Shown here one piece after another: positions 49,598 to 53,757 of a stretch of 64,000 bases of DNA. Below the pieces are notes generated by a model. That model did not search any database. It was not told where the DNA came from and was given only the letters and a program-made list of their open reading frames with translations. Position 1 is the first letter of the stretch; each line of letters starts with the position of its first letter. This stretch comes from Betaproteobacteria bacterium (lineage in GTDB: Bacteria; Pseudomonadota; Gammaproteobacteria; Burkholderiales; CAIKXV01). Made by a program: the position numbers and the translations under genes. The DNA is taken from positions 1 through 64,000 of the forward strand of contig CANGYF010000011.1 in NCBI GenBank assembly GCA_947458265.1, in the 5' to 3' direction.

Positions 49598-52054
49598 ATG
49601 GATACGCCGCCGACGACGAAGGCTTCCCCGGGCAGGCGAGCCGCGGTGCACAGTCTGCAGGCGCGCATCGTGCTTTTCTTCGTGATCCTGCTGGTGACGG
49701 TGCAGGGCGCGCTGATGTTCCTGGTGAGCGTGAGCGGCGAGCGGATCGCGCGCAGCCGTATCGACCAGGAACTGGCGGTCGGTGAGCGGGTGTTTCGCAA
49801 CCTGATCGAGCAGAACGCCCGCCAGCTCACAGATGCGGCGCGGGTGCTCGCAGCCGACTTCGGCTTCCGCACCGCGATCGCCACGCGCGACCTGGAGACC
49901 ATCGTCTCCGTGCTCGGCAACCATGGCCGGCGCATCGATGCGAGCGTCCTGATGCTGGCGGGCCTCGATGGCACCCTGCTGGCCGACACCCTGCACGGGA
50001 CAGACCCTCCGGCTGCCTTCCCGTTCCCGGAACTGATCGAGGCGGCACAGCGCGACCGCCGCGCCAGCCGCATCGTGGTGATCGACGACAAGCCTTACCA
50101 GCTGGTCGTGGTGCCCGTGCTGGCGCCAGTGCCCATCGCCTGGGTAGCCATCGGTTTCGTGATCGACGATCGTGTCGCCGCCGACCTGAAGGCGGTGACC
50201 TCGCTGCAGCTGTCGTTCGCATCGCTGGGCACCGACGGCAGGTGGAGCGTCCATGCATCGACGCTCGAGGCACCGGCGCGCGATGCACTGACCGCATGGC
50301 TCGCGGCCCAGGTGGACAGGGCCGGTGCCGTCGGCGACCGGTCCGGGCAGGCTGCGGCGCGGGCAGCGTCCATGCCGGCCTCGCTGTCGCTAGAAGGGGA
50401 GCGCTACGGGCTGCTTGCACCGGTGATCGGCAGCGGCCCCGAAGGCGCGGTGGTGGCCCTGCTGCAGCGCTCGGTGCGCGAGGGGCTGGAACCGTTCGTG
50501 CGCCTGCGCAATGTGCTGCTCGGCCTGGCACTCGCGAGCATCGTGCTGTCGATCGGGGGCAGCTTCGTGATCGCCCGTACCGTGAGCCGCCCGGTGAACC
50601 GGCTGACCGAGATCGCGCGCCGGGTGAGCGATGGCGACTACAGCCAGCGGGTGGAGGTCCCCGGCCATGACGAGATCGGCGATCTCGGACGCGGCTTCAA
50701 CCACATGCTGGACGGCATCTCCCAGCGCGAGGCGGAGATCCTGCGCCTGGCCTTCGAGGACACGCTGACCGGCCTGCCCAACCGCGCGATGTTCATCGAC
50801 CGGCTGCAGCAGGTCCTGCGCCAGGCCCGGCGCAGCTCGGATCCGGTGACCGTGATGTTGCTCGACCTCGACCGCTTCAAGCTGATCAACGACAGCCTGG
50901 GCCATCCTGCCGGCGACCAGGTGCTGCGCGACGTGGCCAGCAGGCTGCGCGACGTGCTGCGCGAATCCGATACCGTCGCACGACTGGGCGGCGACGAGTT
51001 CGCGCTGCTGCTGCCGGGCAGCCTGCCCGAGCACGTGAACCGGGTCGTCGAGCGGGTGCTGCGCGTGCTCGAGGCACCGATCCTGCTCGACCAGCAGCCG
51101 GTGGACGTCGGTGCCAGCATCGGCATCGCGACCTGGCCGGAGGACGGCGACGACGCCGATACGCTGCTGCGCCATGCCGACGTGGCGATGTACGTAGCCA
51201 AGCGCGCTGGCTCCGGCCACGCCCGCTACGACCAGAGCAAAGAATCCGCTCCGCATGGGCAGCTGTCGCTGCTGGGCGAACTGCGCCGGGCGGTCGAGCA
51301 GGACGAACTGCTGCTGCACTACCAGCCCAAGGTATCGCTCGCAGATGGCAGGGTGCACCGGGCCGAGGCGCTGGTGCGCTGGCAGCATCCCGAGCGGGGC
51401 ATGGTGCCGCCGGGCGATTTCATTCCGTTCGCCGAACAGACCGGCTACATACGCCAGATTTCGCGCTGGGTGCTCGGCGAGGGTATCCGGCAGGCCGCGC
51501 AGTGGCATCGGCAGGGGCTCGATATCGCGGTTTCGATCAACATCGCGTCGCGCGACCTGATGAGCAGCGACCTCCTGGCCTACGTGTCGGACATGCTGGA
51601 CCGCCATGGTGTGCCCGCATCCCAGGTGTGCCTGGAGATCACCGAGAGCGGCGTGATGGAAGACCCGGCGCGGGCGCTGGACACGCTGGCACGCCTGCAC
51701 ACGAAGGGGCTGCGCCTGTCGATCGACGACTTCGGCACCGGCTACTCGTCGCTGGCCTACCTCAAGAAGCTGCCGGTGAAGGAACTGAAGATCGACCGCT
51801 CGTTCGTGATGCATCTGGTCGATGACGCAGACGATGCCGCGATCGTGCGCTCGACGATCGAACTGGGGCACAACATGGGCCTCGAGGTGGTGGCCGAAGG
51901 CGTCGAACGACAGGCCGAAGTCGACCTGCTGGCCCGGCTCGGCTGCGACGAGGCGCAGGGCTATTTCTTCAGCAGGCCGCTGCCGGCGGCGGCCTTCGAG
52001 GAATGGCTGCATGCCAGGCGGGCATCGGCGGGGCAGCAGCAGGCGCCCGCCTAG
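49598..52054 (+). CDS. Membrane-bound diguanylate cyclase/phosphodiesterase (sensor-HAMP-GGDEF-EAL)
   Basis: 818 aa. Helix about 20-45, periplasmic Cache-like sensor (46-300), second helix (about 308-328), HAMP (329-385), GGDEF (about 390-555) and EAL (about 560-810). The cyclase site is ARLGGDEFALLL with an RESD I-site five residues upstream. The EAL site is fully canonical (AEALVRWQHPERG, EITESG, IDDFGTGYSS, KIDRSFV, VAEGVE). Both activities look intact. Translationally linked to the cupredoxin gene 2 bp upstream, suggesting that redox state or copper controls cyclic-di-GMP through the periplasmic domain (inference). Confidence 0.93.
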   Translation: MDTPPTTKASPGRRAAVHSLQARIVLFFVILLVTVQGALMFLVSVSGERIARSRIDQELAVGERVFRNLIEQNARQLTDAARVLAADFGFRTAIATRDLETIVSVLGNHGRRIDASVLMLAGLDGTLLADTLHGTDPPAAFPFPELIEAAQRDRRASRIVVIDDKPYQLVVVPVLAPVPIAWVAIGFVIDDRVAADLKAVTSLQLSFASLGTDGRWSVHASTLEAPARDALTAWLAAQVDRAGAVGDRSGQAAARAASMPASLSLEGERYGLLAPVIGSGPEGAVVALLQRSVREGLEPFVRLRNVLLGLALASIVLSIGGSFVIARTVSRPVNRLTEIARRVSDGDYSQRVEVPGHDEIGDLGRGFNHMLDGISQREAEILRLAFEDTLTGLPNRAMFIDRLQQVLRQARRSSDPVTVMLLDLDRFKLINDSLGHPAGDQVLRDVASRLRDVLRESDTVARLGGDEFALLLPGSLPEHVNRVVERVLRVLEAPILLDQQPVDVGASIGIATWPEDGDDADTLLRHADVAMYVAKRAGSGHARYDQSKESAPHGQLSLLGELRRAVEQDELLLHYQPKVSLADGRVHRAEALVRWQHPERGMVPPGDFIPFAEQTGYIRQISRWVLGEGIRQAAQWHRQGLDIAVSINIASRDLMSSDLLAYVSDMLDRHGVPASQVCLEITESGVMEDPARALDTLARLHTKGLRLSIDDFGTGYSSLAYLKKLPVKELKIDRSFVMHLVDDADDAAIVRSTIELGHNMGLEVVAEGVERQAEVDLLARLGCDEAQGYFFSRPLPAAAFEEWLHARRASAGQQQAPA

Positions 52055-52099
52055 CCTAGAATACCGGCTCGTGCATCGAACCACCGAGGAGGGCGAGCG

Positions 52100-52639
52100 A
52101 TGGTTGCCAAGGTTTACCTGATTTCCCCGGAAGCCCCCGTGCAGCAGGGCGAGGCGGCGGGCGCACAGCGTGAGGCGGCCAGCGGCGGCCTTCGCATCGG
52201 CGTGCTCGACAATTCCAAGAGCAACGCAGACCACCTGCTGAAGATGATCATCGAAGGCGTGGGCAAGCACATGCCGGTCGCATCCGTGGTCAGCCTGCGC
52301 AAGCCCAACCCGAGCACGCCGGCAACGAAGGCCATGCTCGACCAGATCGAGGCGGAGGCAGACTTCGTCGTCAGTGCGATGGCGGACTGAGGGTCCTGCA
52401 CGTCGTGGAGTGTCCACGACATGGCGCAGCTCCGGAAGCGTGGCCTGGTGACCGCGGTCATCTACTCCGGCCCGTTCCGCAAGCTTGGCGAGACCCAGGC
52501 GCGCATTTTCGGCGTGCCGGAACTGCCGCTGATCGAGATCCCGCATCCGCTGGGCGGCGTGTCGATCGATGAAGTGCGCGAGCGGGCCGACGTGGCCGTG
52601 CCCGTGTTCGTCGACCTGATCCGGAAGCACCAGAAATGA
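52100..52639 (+). CDS. UGSC-type selenoprotein (in-frame TGA at 52388 read as selenocysteine)
   Basis: 180 codons including one in-frame TGA. The two halves (residues 1-96 and 98-179) are in exactly the same frame with no indel. At the junction the protein reads AMAD-U97-GSCTSWSVHDMAQL, a U-G-S-C motif after a beta strand (ADFVVSAMAD) as in a redox-active loop; Cys100 is the partner. The N-terminal half has GLRIGVLDNSKSNADHLLKM and the C-terminal half RKRGLVTAVIYSGPFRKLG, together a Rossmann-like fold. UGSC is a name I recall for an annotated (seleno)protein family whose non-selenium members have CGSC. A hairpin begins 12 nt after the TGA (see separate entry). GGAGGGCGAGCG precedes the ATG. 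Its end overlaps the partner gene by 4 nt. A pseudogene with a nonsense mutation is the main alternative. Confidence 0.85.
52388..52420 (+). promoter_or_regulatory. Candidate bacterial SECIS element after the UGA codon
   Basis: TGA (52388-52390), 11-nt spacer, then GTCGTGGA - GTG - TCCACGAC (52402-52420), a perfect 8-bp stem. The 11-nt distance equals that in Escherichia coli fdhF, where SelB binds a hairpin just after the UGA. The loop contains GU, though not the exact GGUCU loop of fdhF. All positions are also coding. Confidence 0.7.
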
Positions 52640-53757
52640 TCGCGACCGAACGACTGCTCGAGATCCCCGGCGCGGCGCTGGAGGTCGACGACGACTACGA
52701 AGGCATCGACGCATTCGTGCGTGGCAAGAACTGGACCGACGGCCTGCCGGTGGTACCGCCAACGGCCGAGCGCGTGCGCGCGATGCTCGCCTACTGCGAT
52801 CGCCCGATCGACGAGGCGGTGGCGAAGATCCCGCCGCGCTTCGGCGAGGCGACGCCGGTTCGCCTGGCGGCCAATGCCGTGATGGCCGGCTGCCTGCCGC
52901 AGTACTTCCCGCTGGTGCTGCTCGCGATCGAGGCACTGTGCGAGGAGAAGTTCAACCTTTACGGCATCCAGGCGACCACGCATCCGTGCTCGACGCTGCT
53001 GGTGGTCAACGGCCCGGTCGCGCGCGAGATCGGCATGAACGGTGGCCACAATGCGTTCGGCCCGGGCAACCGCGCCAACGCGACGATCGGCCGTGCGGTG
53101 CGGCTGGCGATGTGGAACATCGGCGGCGCCATCCCCGCGAGCGGCGACATGTCGACCCATGGCGCTCCGTCGAAGTACACCTACTGCGTCGCCGAGAACG
53201 AGGCGGCGAACCCGTGGGAGCCGCTCAACGTCGAGATGGGCTTTACCGCAGAGACCTCGACGGTCACCGTGTACGGCGCCGAGCCGCCGCACAACGTGAA
53301 CGACCACGAGAGCCTGGACGGCGAAGGGCTGCTGAAGATGATCGCCGGCACCATCGCCCAGACCGGCGCGAACAACATCTACTACGCCGGCGAGCCGCTG
53401 GTGGTGATCGGGCCTGAACATGCGGCGTCGATCGCGAAGAGCGGCTTCTCGAAGCGCGACGTCAAGAACTTCCTGTTCGAGCATGCGCGCGTGCCGCTGG
53501 GTAACCTGTCCGATGACAACATCGTGCGCCGGCTGAACCAGTTCGTGCCGTACCTGCCTGGCCTCACCGCCGAGCAGCGCGACCGGCCGGTGCCGATCAT
53601 CAAGGGCGAGGAAGCCGTGCACGTGATCGTGGTGGGTGGTGCAGGCAAGCACTCGGTGTACATCCCGACCTTCGGGCCGACGCGGCCGGTGACGTTGCCG
53701 CTGAAGCTGAAGGACGGCACGCTGGCGACTTCGGTGGAGCAGTTCCGGCAGGCCTGA
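52636..53757 (+). CDS. Partner protein of the UGSC selenoprotein, function unknown
   Basis: 373 aa, cytoplasmic. The ATG overlaps the selenoprotein stop (ATGA, 52636-52639). Distinct blocks are KNWTDGLPVVPPTAERVRAM, GIQATTHPCSTLLVVNGPV, MNGGHNAFGPGNRANATIG, GDMSTHGAPSKYTYCVAENE and a C-terminal VHVIVVGGAGKHSVYIP. The Cys in TTHPCSTLLV and several conserved-looking His/Asn/Gly residues could form an active site that works with Sec97 of the partner. I recall this protein type regularly next to, or fused with, UGSC proteins, but no reaction is established to my knowledge. A 14-bp hairpin follows the stop. Confidence 0.8.
   Translation: MIATERLLEIPGAALEVDDDYEGIDAFVRGKNWTDGLPVVPPTAERVRAMLAYCDRPIDEAVAKIPPRFGEATPVRLAANAVMAGCLPQYFPLVLLAIEALCEEKFNLYGIQATTHPCSTLLVVNGPVAREIGMNGGHNAFGPGNRANATIGRAVRLAMWNIGGAIPASGDMSTHGAPSKYTYCVAENEAANPWEPLNVEMGFTAETSTVTVYGAEPPHNVNDHESLDGEGLLKMIAGTIAQTGANNIYYAGEPLVVIGPEHAASIAKSGFSKRDVKNFLFEHARVPLGNLSDDNIVRRLNQFVPYLPGLTAEQRDRPVPIIKGEEAVHVIVVGGAGKHSVYIPTFGPTRPVTLPLKLKDGTLATSVEQFRQA

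Follow-up and report, generated by a model that had tools for sequence, protein, structure and literature searches.

UGSC and its near-constant partner protein as a candidate selenoenzyme with remote similarity to the GrdB and PrdB subunits

In this work, we analyzed a 64,000-nt stretch of DNA (the window) containing a gene of the selenoprotein family UGSC, and our results favored a reading in which UGSC and the protein encoded next to it act together as a selenoenzyme that draws on NADPH/thiols to reduce a small organic acid. We give this reading a probability of roughly 60%; within it, we infer the substrate, the catalysis and the role of the partner. Selenium-dependent reductive chemistry is known mainly from amino-acid fermenters, and, if the reading is true, it would extend to bacteria whose gene neighbors suggest organic-acid and CoA-ester catabolism. 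Taken alone, the window gene is an unremarkable member of an already described family. What is new is the proposed link to GrdB and PrdB, together with a partner that is nearly always present and a possible electron donor; these make UGSC a testable enzyme proposal. The earlier note on this DNA had dealt with the selenoprotein gene; what goes beyond it is the SECIS hairpin, the two paralogues, the GrdB/PrdB kinship and the inclusion of the partner in the system. The family was already reported in 2008 in a survey of Global Ocean Sampling data, in which it ranked as the fifth most numerous selenoprotein family with 255 sequences (PMC2398784, available to us in part).

Results

A UGSC gene with an in-frame TGA

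The following features of the window are referred to below:

52086..52092, + strand: GAGGAGG, likely ribosome-binding site, 7 nt before the ATG at 52100 (by eye from the sequence)
52100..52639, + strand: UGSC-family selenoprotein gene, 179 aa with Sec97 (reading of the frame, Pfam and NCBIfam matches, TGA-bearing paralogues)
52388..52390, + strand: in-frame TGA read as selenocysteine, Sec97 (Sec in 93 and Cys in 6 of 101 aligned copies)
52402..52420, + strand: SECIS hairpin, 8-bp stem 52402-52409/52413-52420, loop GTG at 52410-52412, 19 nt after the TGA (sequence, folding, stem conservation and the bacterial SECIS model in the available part of PMC13188914)
52636..53757, + strand: partner protein, 373 aa, overlapping the UGSC stop by 4 nt (ORF call; fused to UGSC in many relatives)

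The earlier note had proposed that two short open frames at this locus are one gene split by a TGA. This was borne out: a single frame runs from the ATG at 52100 to 52639, interrupted only by the TGA at 52388-52390, and its next in-frame stop is the TGA at 52637-52639. The first short frame has the 96 aa given in that note, whereas the second has 72 aa by ORF calling rather than 73 aa. The 30 bases at 52391-52420 do translate as GSCTSWSVHD, and the joined 179-aa protein carries the redox motif U/C-G-S-C as Sec97-Gly-Ser-Cys100, as had been read. The 4-nt overlap with the downstream gene was also found, its ATG at 52636 lying inside an ATGA shared with the UGSC stop. The proposed UGSC identity held as well: the joined protein scored above both family cut-offs (146.5 bits versus 25 for PF24696 and 130 bits versus 125 for NF041046), and the two matches (residues 8-174 and 30-174, respectively) run across the TGA. 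Thus, the window protein has the whole domain and the motif of the family; its gene stands separately, whereas in many relatives UGSC forms a fusion with the partner.

Position 97, for which a homologue search had been suggested, was compared in 101 aligned copies, 17 from the loci of a first genome search and 84 from loci fetched with the partner (best 80 of 582). The Sec column contained Sec in 93 copies, Cys in 6 and Gly in 1, with 1 missing, and the second Cys of the motif was kept in 97 of the 101. In the 84 partner-fetched copies (best 80 of 582 loci), the corresponding numbers were 77 Sec, 5 Cys, 1 Gly and 1 missing. Cys forms occurred, among others, in the haloarchaea Natrialba and Natronomonas. 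In plasmid-borne fusions of Sporomusa termitida (L140, 7353-9077) and Vibrio europaeus (L142, 7374-9059), MGTS replaces UGSC, and aconitase X and DUF126 genes lie about 2 kb or less away; these fusions form a branch without the redox residues. Since MGTS is found in two fused relatives and Gly in one further copy, Sec or Cys is not needed everywhere.

That the window protein is a genuine UGSC member with a decoded Sec is, in our view, practically certain. A sequencing error, a pseudogene or two separate short genes would fit the two frames of automated calling, and the UGSC annotation in a Paracoccus ferrooxidans plasmid record is split likewise, but this explanation is extremely improbable because each of three paralogues in the genome has one in-frame TGA and 77 of 84 copies from other genomes (best 80 of 582 loci) have Sec in the aligned column, which in practice excludes an error or a decaying gene; the conserved hairpin and the Sec machinery also stand against it.

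SECIS hairpin

In the bacterial SECIS model, as far as described in the part of PMC13188914 available, the loop lies 16-37 nt past the UGA, has 3-9 nt with a G within its first two positions, and closes a stem of 4-16 bp. The window hairpin fits this model, with the loop GTG at 19 nt and 8 of 8 pairs formed in an 8-bp stem. Its folding energy was unremarkable relative to dinucleotide shuffles (z = -1.52; 16 of 200 as good), and an Rfam scan of 51900-53000, with the SECIS model included, gave no match at E up to 1. In 91 Sec copies, pairing extended to 87.8% of stem cells, and six slid versions reached 20-52%. At least seven of the eight pairs were formed in 67 of these copies and fewer than six in 15; most of the latter are divergent fusions, for which a different register would be needed. 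When compared with codon-shuffled versions, the segment around the hairpin had a mean z of -1.26 (n = 91), and three control segments had -0.19 to -0.31 (n = 90-91).

The third base of codon 103 pairs with the third base of a Val codon. In 57 copies with this Val codon opposite, GTC was found with G in 47 of 47 cases and GTG with C in 8 of 8, the other 2 being unpaired A-G; copies with Cys103 (TGC) had the compensating G in all of 10 cases. These counts come from related copies and not from independent events. In UGSC genes overall, GTG and GTC are about equally common (671 and 650, respectively). The synonymous Val codon co-varies in a way that keeps the hairpin paired. On the other hand, 4 of 6 Cys-type copies keep 6 or 7 of the 8 pairs, so the stem may in part reflect coding constraint or a relic. 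The four genes (L065, L075, L089 and L090) are possibly relics of a Sec ancestor.

Selenocysteine machinery and UGSC copies

The window lies on contig C11 of a 4.0-Mb genome in 33 contigs. The earlier note had suggested looking for the Sec machinery in this genome, and all of it was detected: selA (550.9 bits), selB (431.8 bits) and tRNA-Sec (72.9 bits, also called by ARAGORN) are next to one another on contig C18; selD was located on contig C4 (C4:104922-105860). The selD gene has an in-frame TGA within its GGGUGCK motif, and selenophosphate synthetase is therefore probably a selenoprotein itself. Besides the window copy, UGSC genes were found at C5:159859 and C4:191335, each of the three with one in-frame TGA; none is adjacent to the sel genes. 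Taken together, the sequence, the machinery and a codon choice that preserves the structure indicate clearly that the window gene yields a selenoprotein through SelB/SECIS-directed UGA recoding.

Within the class, UGSC was found in 6 of 369 genomes, five with the TGA form and one with the Cys form. A full-length SelA (>500 bits) was present in four of the five TGA-form genomes, and the Cys-form genome (G337, 75% complete) had no SelA match. One genome (G135, contig C55) combined a TGA-type UGSC with only a 21-bit SelA match, perhaps by misbinning or because selA was missed. Another (G332) contained nine UGSC copies and 16 partner matches.

Partner protein

We collected partner loci by searching an alignment of 11 partners against GTDB species genomes and taking the best 80 of 582 confirmed relatives, which share the bias of this query. 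UGSC was located in them with a profile built from 15 seeds, genes in unannotated loci were greedy ORF picks, fusions were counted from open-frame length, and distances were measured from the ends of profile matches. Although the loci were fetched by the partner alone, 75 of the 80 (best 80 of 582) contained UGSC. Among the 84 UGSC copies in them, 28 were fused to the partner, 40 preceded and 12 followed it within 400 nt, and 4 lay farther away. Five loci were free of UGSC: the partner is cut at a contig edge in L052, L067 and L078, the contig ends soon after it in L050, and L109 (6028-7032) has a partner with no UGSC match within 6 kb. The window's genome also has a partner gene with no UGSC match nearby (C3:28482-29483).

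The partner had no Pfam match and no NCBIfam match that was above cut-off or convincing. PDB sequence searches, those with the partner among them, also yielded nothing convincing (best E 0.019), and phage records gave no match. Five polar residues of the partner are invariant (D35, N148, R153, N161 and E187). Across the 11 partners of the broad set, no Cys position is fully conserved; in 68 closer partners, C86 is invariant.

In the 2008 survey, the available text describes UGSC fused to a conserved unknown domain (UGSC/Unknown_1), as here; Unknown_1 is probably the same partner, judging from that text and not from its Figure S1 (PMC2398784). A natural fusion of 543 aa (L059) was modeled with a pLDDT of 95.5 and a pTM of 0.94, so the UGSC and partner halves are confidently placed relative to each other in the prediction. 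Foldseek searches covered UGSC and this fused model; the hits of the latter were weak, were listed with no aligned ranges and largely resembled those of UGSC by itself, so the partner may still have a fold match. Adjacency, gene fusion and the confident joint fold suggest that UGSC and the partner may form one enzyme.

Predicted fold of UGSC

The Rossmann-like fold anticipated in the earlier note agrees with the AlphaFold2 model of UGSC (Sec modeled as Cys; pLDDT 95.3), which is a five-stranded parallel alpha/beta protein with residue 97 after strand 3, just before helix 98-113. The best Foldseek match in the PDB, a weak one, was an FMN azoreductase (E 1.3e-5, TM 0.48); other weak matches included flavodiiron and flavodoxin proteins and many Rossmann-like folds. 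No thioredoxin was among the 50 PDB matches listed. The available text of the 2008 survey proposed that UGSC has a 'likely Trx-like fold' (PMC2398784); in contrast, the predicted fold is flavodoxin-like or Rossmann-like, and on this prediction we ruled out a thioredoxin fold.

Relationship to GrdB and PrdB

An NCBIfam scan of 72 UGSC proteins revealed matches to selenoprotein B subunits. More than half (39 of 72) matched GrdB (TIGR01917; best E 5.1e-6), followed by GrdF (16), TIGR01918 (13), betaine GrdH (10) and PrdB (TIGR04483; 8, best E 4.4e-5), and each of the other non-UGSC families matched at most 4 of the 72. When ten UGSC proteins were scanned singly, eight had a GrdB match (E 0.0003 to 0.06) and the other two had none. 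By an ungapped count from the match start, the Sec/Cys fell at GrdB profile position 346-349 of 431 in all eight matching proteins; by the same kind of count, it fell near PrdB profile position 148 of 238 in both PrdB-matching proteins. In Clostridium sticklandii, Sec is at position 350 of 436 in GrdB and 152 of 242 in PrdB, according to the part of PMC3091704 available. The GrdB motif is given as UxxCxxC in the text seen of PMC13188914; UGSC shares UxxC, and 10 of 89 Sec copies have the complete motif, the window copy having Trp at the third position.

These matches are far below family level: 12-20 bits for GrdB versus a TIGR01917 cut-off of 602 (602.2), and 12-13 bits for PrdB versus 300. 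For the window protein itself, the NCBIfam scan reported only UGSC and no GrdB-type match. The Pfam scan of the 72 UGSC proteins matched 30 families, and the 25 listed do not include GRDB (PF07355). PF07355 had a distant match in 3 of 249 genomes of the phylum and none in the window's genome; a profile comparison of UGSC with the three matching proteins gave a probability of 39% (E 3e-4), with Cys over the Sec column, and the same comparison of the partner gave nothing. Because the GrdB matches are weak, the window protein has none and Pfam GRDB is not among the families listed, UGSC looks like a remote homologue, and not a member, of the GrdB/GrdF/GrdH/PrdB B subunits, with Sec at what would be the same site, as judged from profile matches.

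In comparison with the known systems, GrdB, GrdF and GrdH (TIGR01917, TIGR01918, PF07355) are like UGSC around Sec, in profile position and in working with a second subunit, as we propose for UGSC and the partner. However, GrdB-type proteins have about 435 aa and UGSC about 180 aa, and the GrdB-type partner GrdE is a pyruvoyl protein, whereas the UGSC partner has neither a grd/prd match nor an indicated pyruvoyl site. D-proline reductase shows the same mixture, with weak PrdB matches and a corresponding Sec position on the UGSC side but no PrdA-like protein on the partner side. A pyruvoyl partner of the GrdE/PrdA type with an internal Cys was not supported: none of 68 partners matched any grd/prd family and the 11 broad-set partners share no common Cys, so pyruvoyl chemistry is not indicated.

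Electron supply and selenium islands

We scanned 101 stretches, two of which (L127 and L128) are not UGSC loci, for TrxB. A TrxB-like flavoprotein with CxxC was near UGSC in 7 of the 101: L114, L126 of the window's own genome, two stretches of G332 (L134 and L135), and plasmids of Arthrobacter, Variovorax and Roseovarius. Only one of the main loci had TrxB within 6 kb (L114; 1 of the best 80 of 582), and no TrxB-family match was found on contig C11. The six UGSC genomes of the class have five TrxB-like proteins above 100 bits, which are below the TrxB cut-off, and four of these five are encoded within 2.2 kb of UGSC or the partner: on C4 of the window's genome, on G332 C13 (55 nt), on G332 C2 (opposite strand) and on G135 C55 (77 nt). 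The order on the Arthrobacter plasmid is trxB-trxA-partner-UGSC. On C4, genes for MmgE/PrpD, the TrxB-like protein (CADC), a glutathione-transferase-like protein, a TctC-like protein (by eye), two partners and UGSC follow one another on one strand.

The TrxB-like protein of the window's genome matched 479 plasmid records, and the best-ranked four (three Paracoccus and one Neorhizobium) all carry the partner, which is present in 24 plasmid records. The two genes are only 80 bp apart in Neorhizobium; in Paracoccus, about 5.3 kb separate them in two plasmids and 15 kb in the remaining one. We opened 16 of the 24 records, nine for their neighborhoods, four chosen in knowledge of the TrxB result and three later; 4 of the 16 stretches were without annotation. 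The P. ferrooxidans plasmid (L147, CP038202.1 1310000-1335000) has a selenocysteine island of about 21 kb with tRNA-Sec, a TrxB-like gene, trxB, selA, UGSC (with TGA and hairpin), the partner and the start of an annotated selB. The stretch read in Paracoccus versutus (L146) contains tRNA-Sec, a TrxB-like gene, UGSC and the partner. In G332, about 10 kb of contig C2 (141765-151898; L134) hold a TrxB-like gene, selB, UGSC-partner, selA, a second UGSC-partner and tRNA-Sec, both UGSC-partner pairs being fused. Two Neorhizobium plasmids carry consecutive genes for a Cys-type UGSC, the partner and a TrxB-like protein, and tRNA-Sec is missing from the stretch.

From this gene order, seen in a minority of loci, we infer an NADPH/TrxB electron path for UGSC. 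Thioredoxin reductase and thioredoxin are described as serving glycine reductase in the available part of PMC3091704.

Metabolic setting

Among the plasmid stretches, 12 are annotated (L137-L145, L147, L150 and L152); a CoA transferase gene was present in 6 of them and a transporter gene of an organic-acid type, TctC or TRAP, in 8; genes for CoA-ester lyase, isocitrate-lyase-family, DUF6282 and acyl-CoA dehydrogenase proteins were further neighbors. These plasmid neighbors, counted without a matched control, suggest small-acid catabolism. DUF6282 genes recur beside UGSC or the partner on haloarchaeal plasmids (L137, L138, L150 and L152).

An ORF of a TctC cluster occurred in about 27 of the 80 loci (best 80 of 582; ORF clustering, with one member, L044, confirmed as TctC). 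The 4-Mb genome of the window has at least 150 TctC (PF03401) solute-binding protein genes, so TctC beside UGSC means little, and an enrichment of TctC near UGSC was rejected as unproven. The gene upstream of the window UGSC is of EAL/GGDEF type (by eye), and the immediate neighbor of this copy therefore gives no hint of small acids.

Discussion

The earlier note had called the function of UGSC unsettled, and this agrees with the literature found, which falls short of most subscription papers and whose UGSC passages, as far as available, assign none. In the mechanism we favor, the selenolate of Sec97 would attack or directly reduce a substrate that the partner holds, either a small organic acid or a compound of a CoA pathway; Cys100 would then resolve Sec97 to a selenenylsulfide, and electrons from NADPH would return Sec97 to the selenol through thioredoxin reductase and thioredoxin or through the TrxB-like flavoprotein. 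A comparable step has been put forward for PrdB, whose selenocysteine is proposed to attack the alpha-carbon of proline (PMC3091704, part available). The substrate, a covalent intermediate and the role of the partner are thus presumed features of the scheme.

An alternative that we consider unlikely, yet the strongest competitor, is that UGSC serves in redox defense as a general thiol/selenol oxidoreductase, with the partner as a dedicated client or scaffold. The UxxC motif and the TrxB neighbors would suit such a role, and earlier authors, in the text available, grouped UGSC with redox proteins (PMC2398784). However, a general oxidoreductase would hardly be expected to have its partner fused or within 400 nt in 80 of 84 copies (best 80 of 582 loci) or to occur nine times in one genome, and the predicted non-thioredoxin fold, the similarity to GrdB/PrdB and plasmid neighbors that are often organic-acid transporters and CoA enzymes also argue against it.

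Slightly less probable still is that catalysis is carried out by the partner (e.g., as a lyase, hydrolase or isomerase), with UGSC, lost in some lineages, serving as a redox switch or an inlet for electrons. Partners without UGSC nearby, the MGTS-bearing fusions and the invariant polar residues of the partner speak for this explanation. The retention of costly Sec in 93 of 101 copies, on the other hand, is easier to reconcile with catalysis than with regulation, and the mapping of the Sec site onto that of GrdB/PrdB also stands against this explanation.

A bolder version of the selenoenzyme reading, which we put forward tentatively and hold to be rather more doubtful than the reading itself, is that UGSC and the partner represent a widespread second branch of GrdB/PrdB selenoenzymes. 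Such a branch would be a pyruvoyl-free, NADPH/TrxB-driven reductase, mainly non-clostridial in the present data, with paralogues specific for many different substrates (one genome has nine copies) and a selenolate nucleophile that cleaves an unreactive bond in small carboxylic acids; sometimes it would travel as a cassette with trxB-like, selA, selB and selC genes, including on a plasmid.

Multiplication of paralogues within a genome, as seen for UGSC, is also described for FarB/FarE in the part of PMC10838667 available. Some of the UGSC copies of G332 have N-termini that, by eye, resemble signal peptides.
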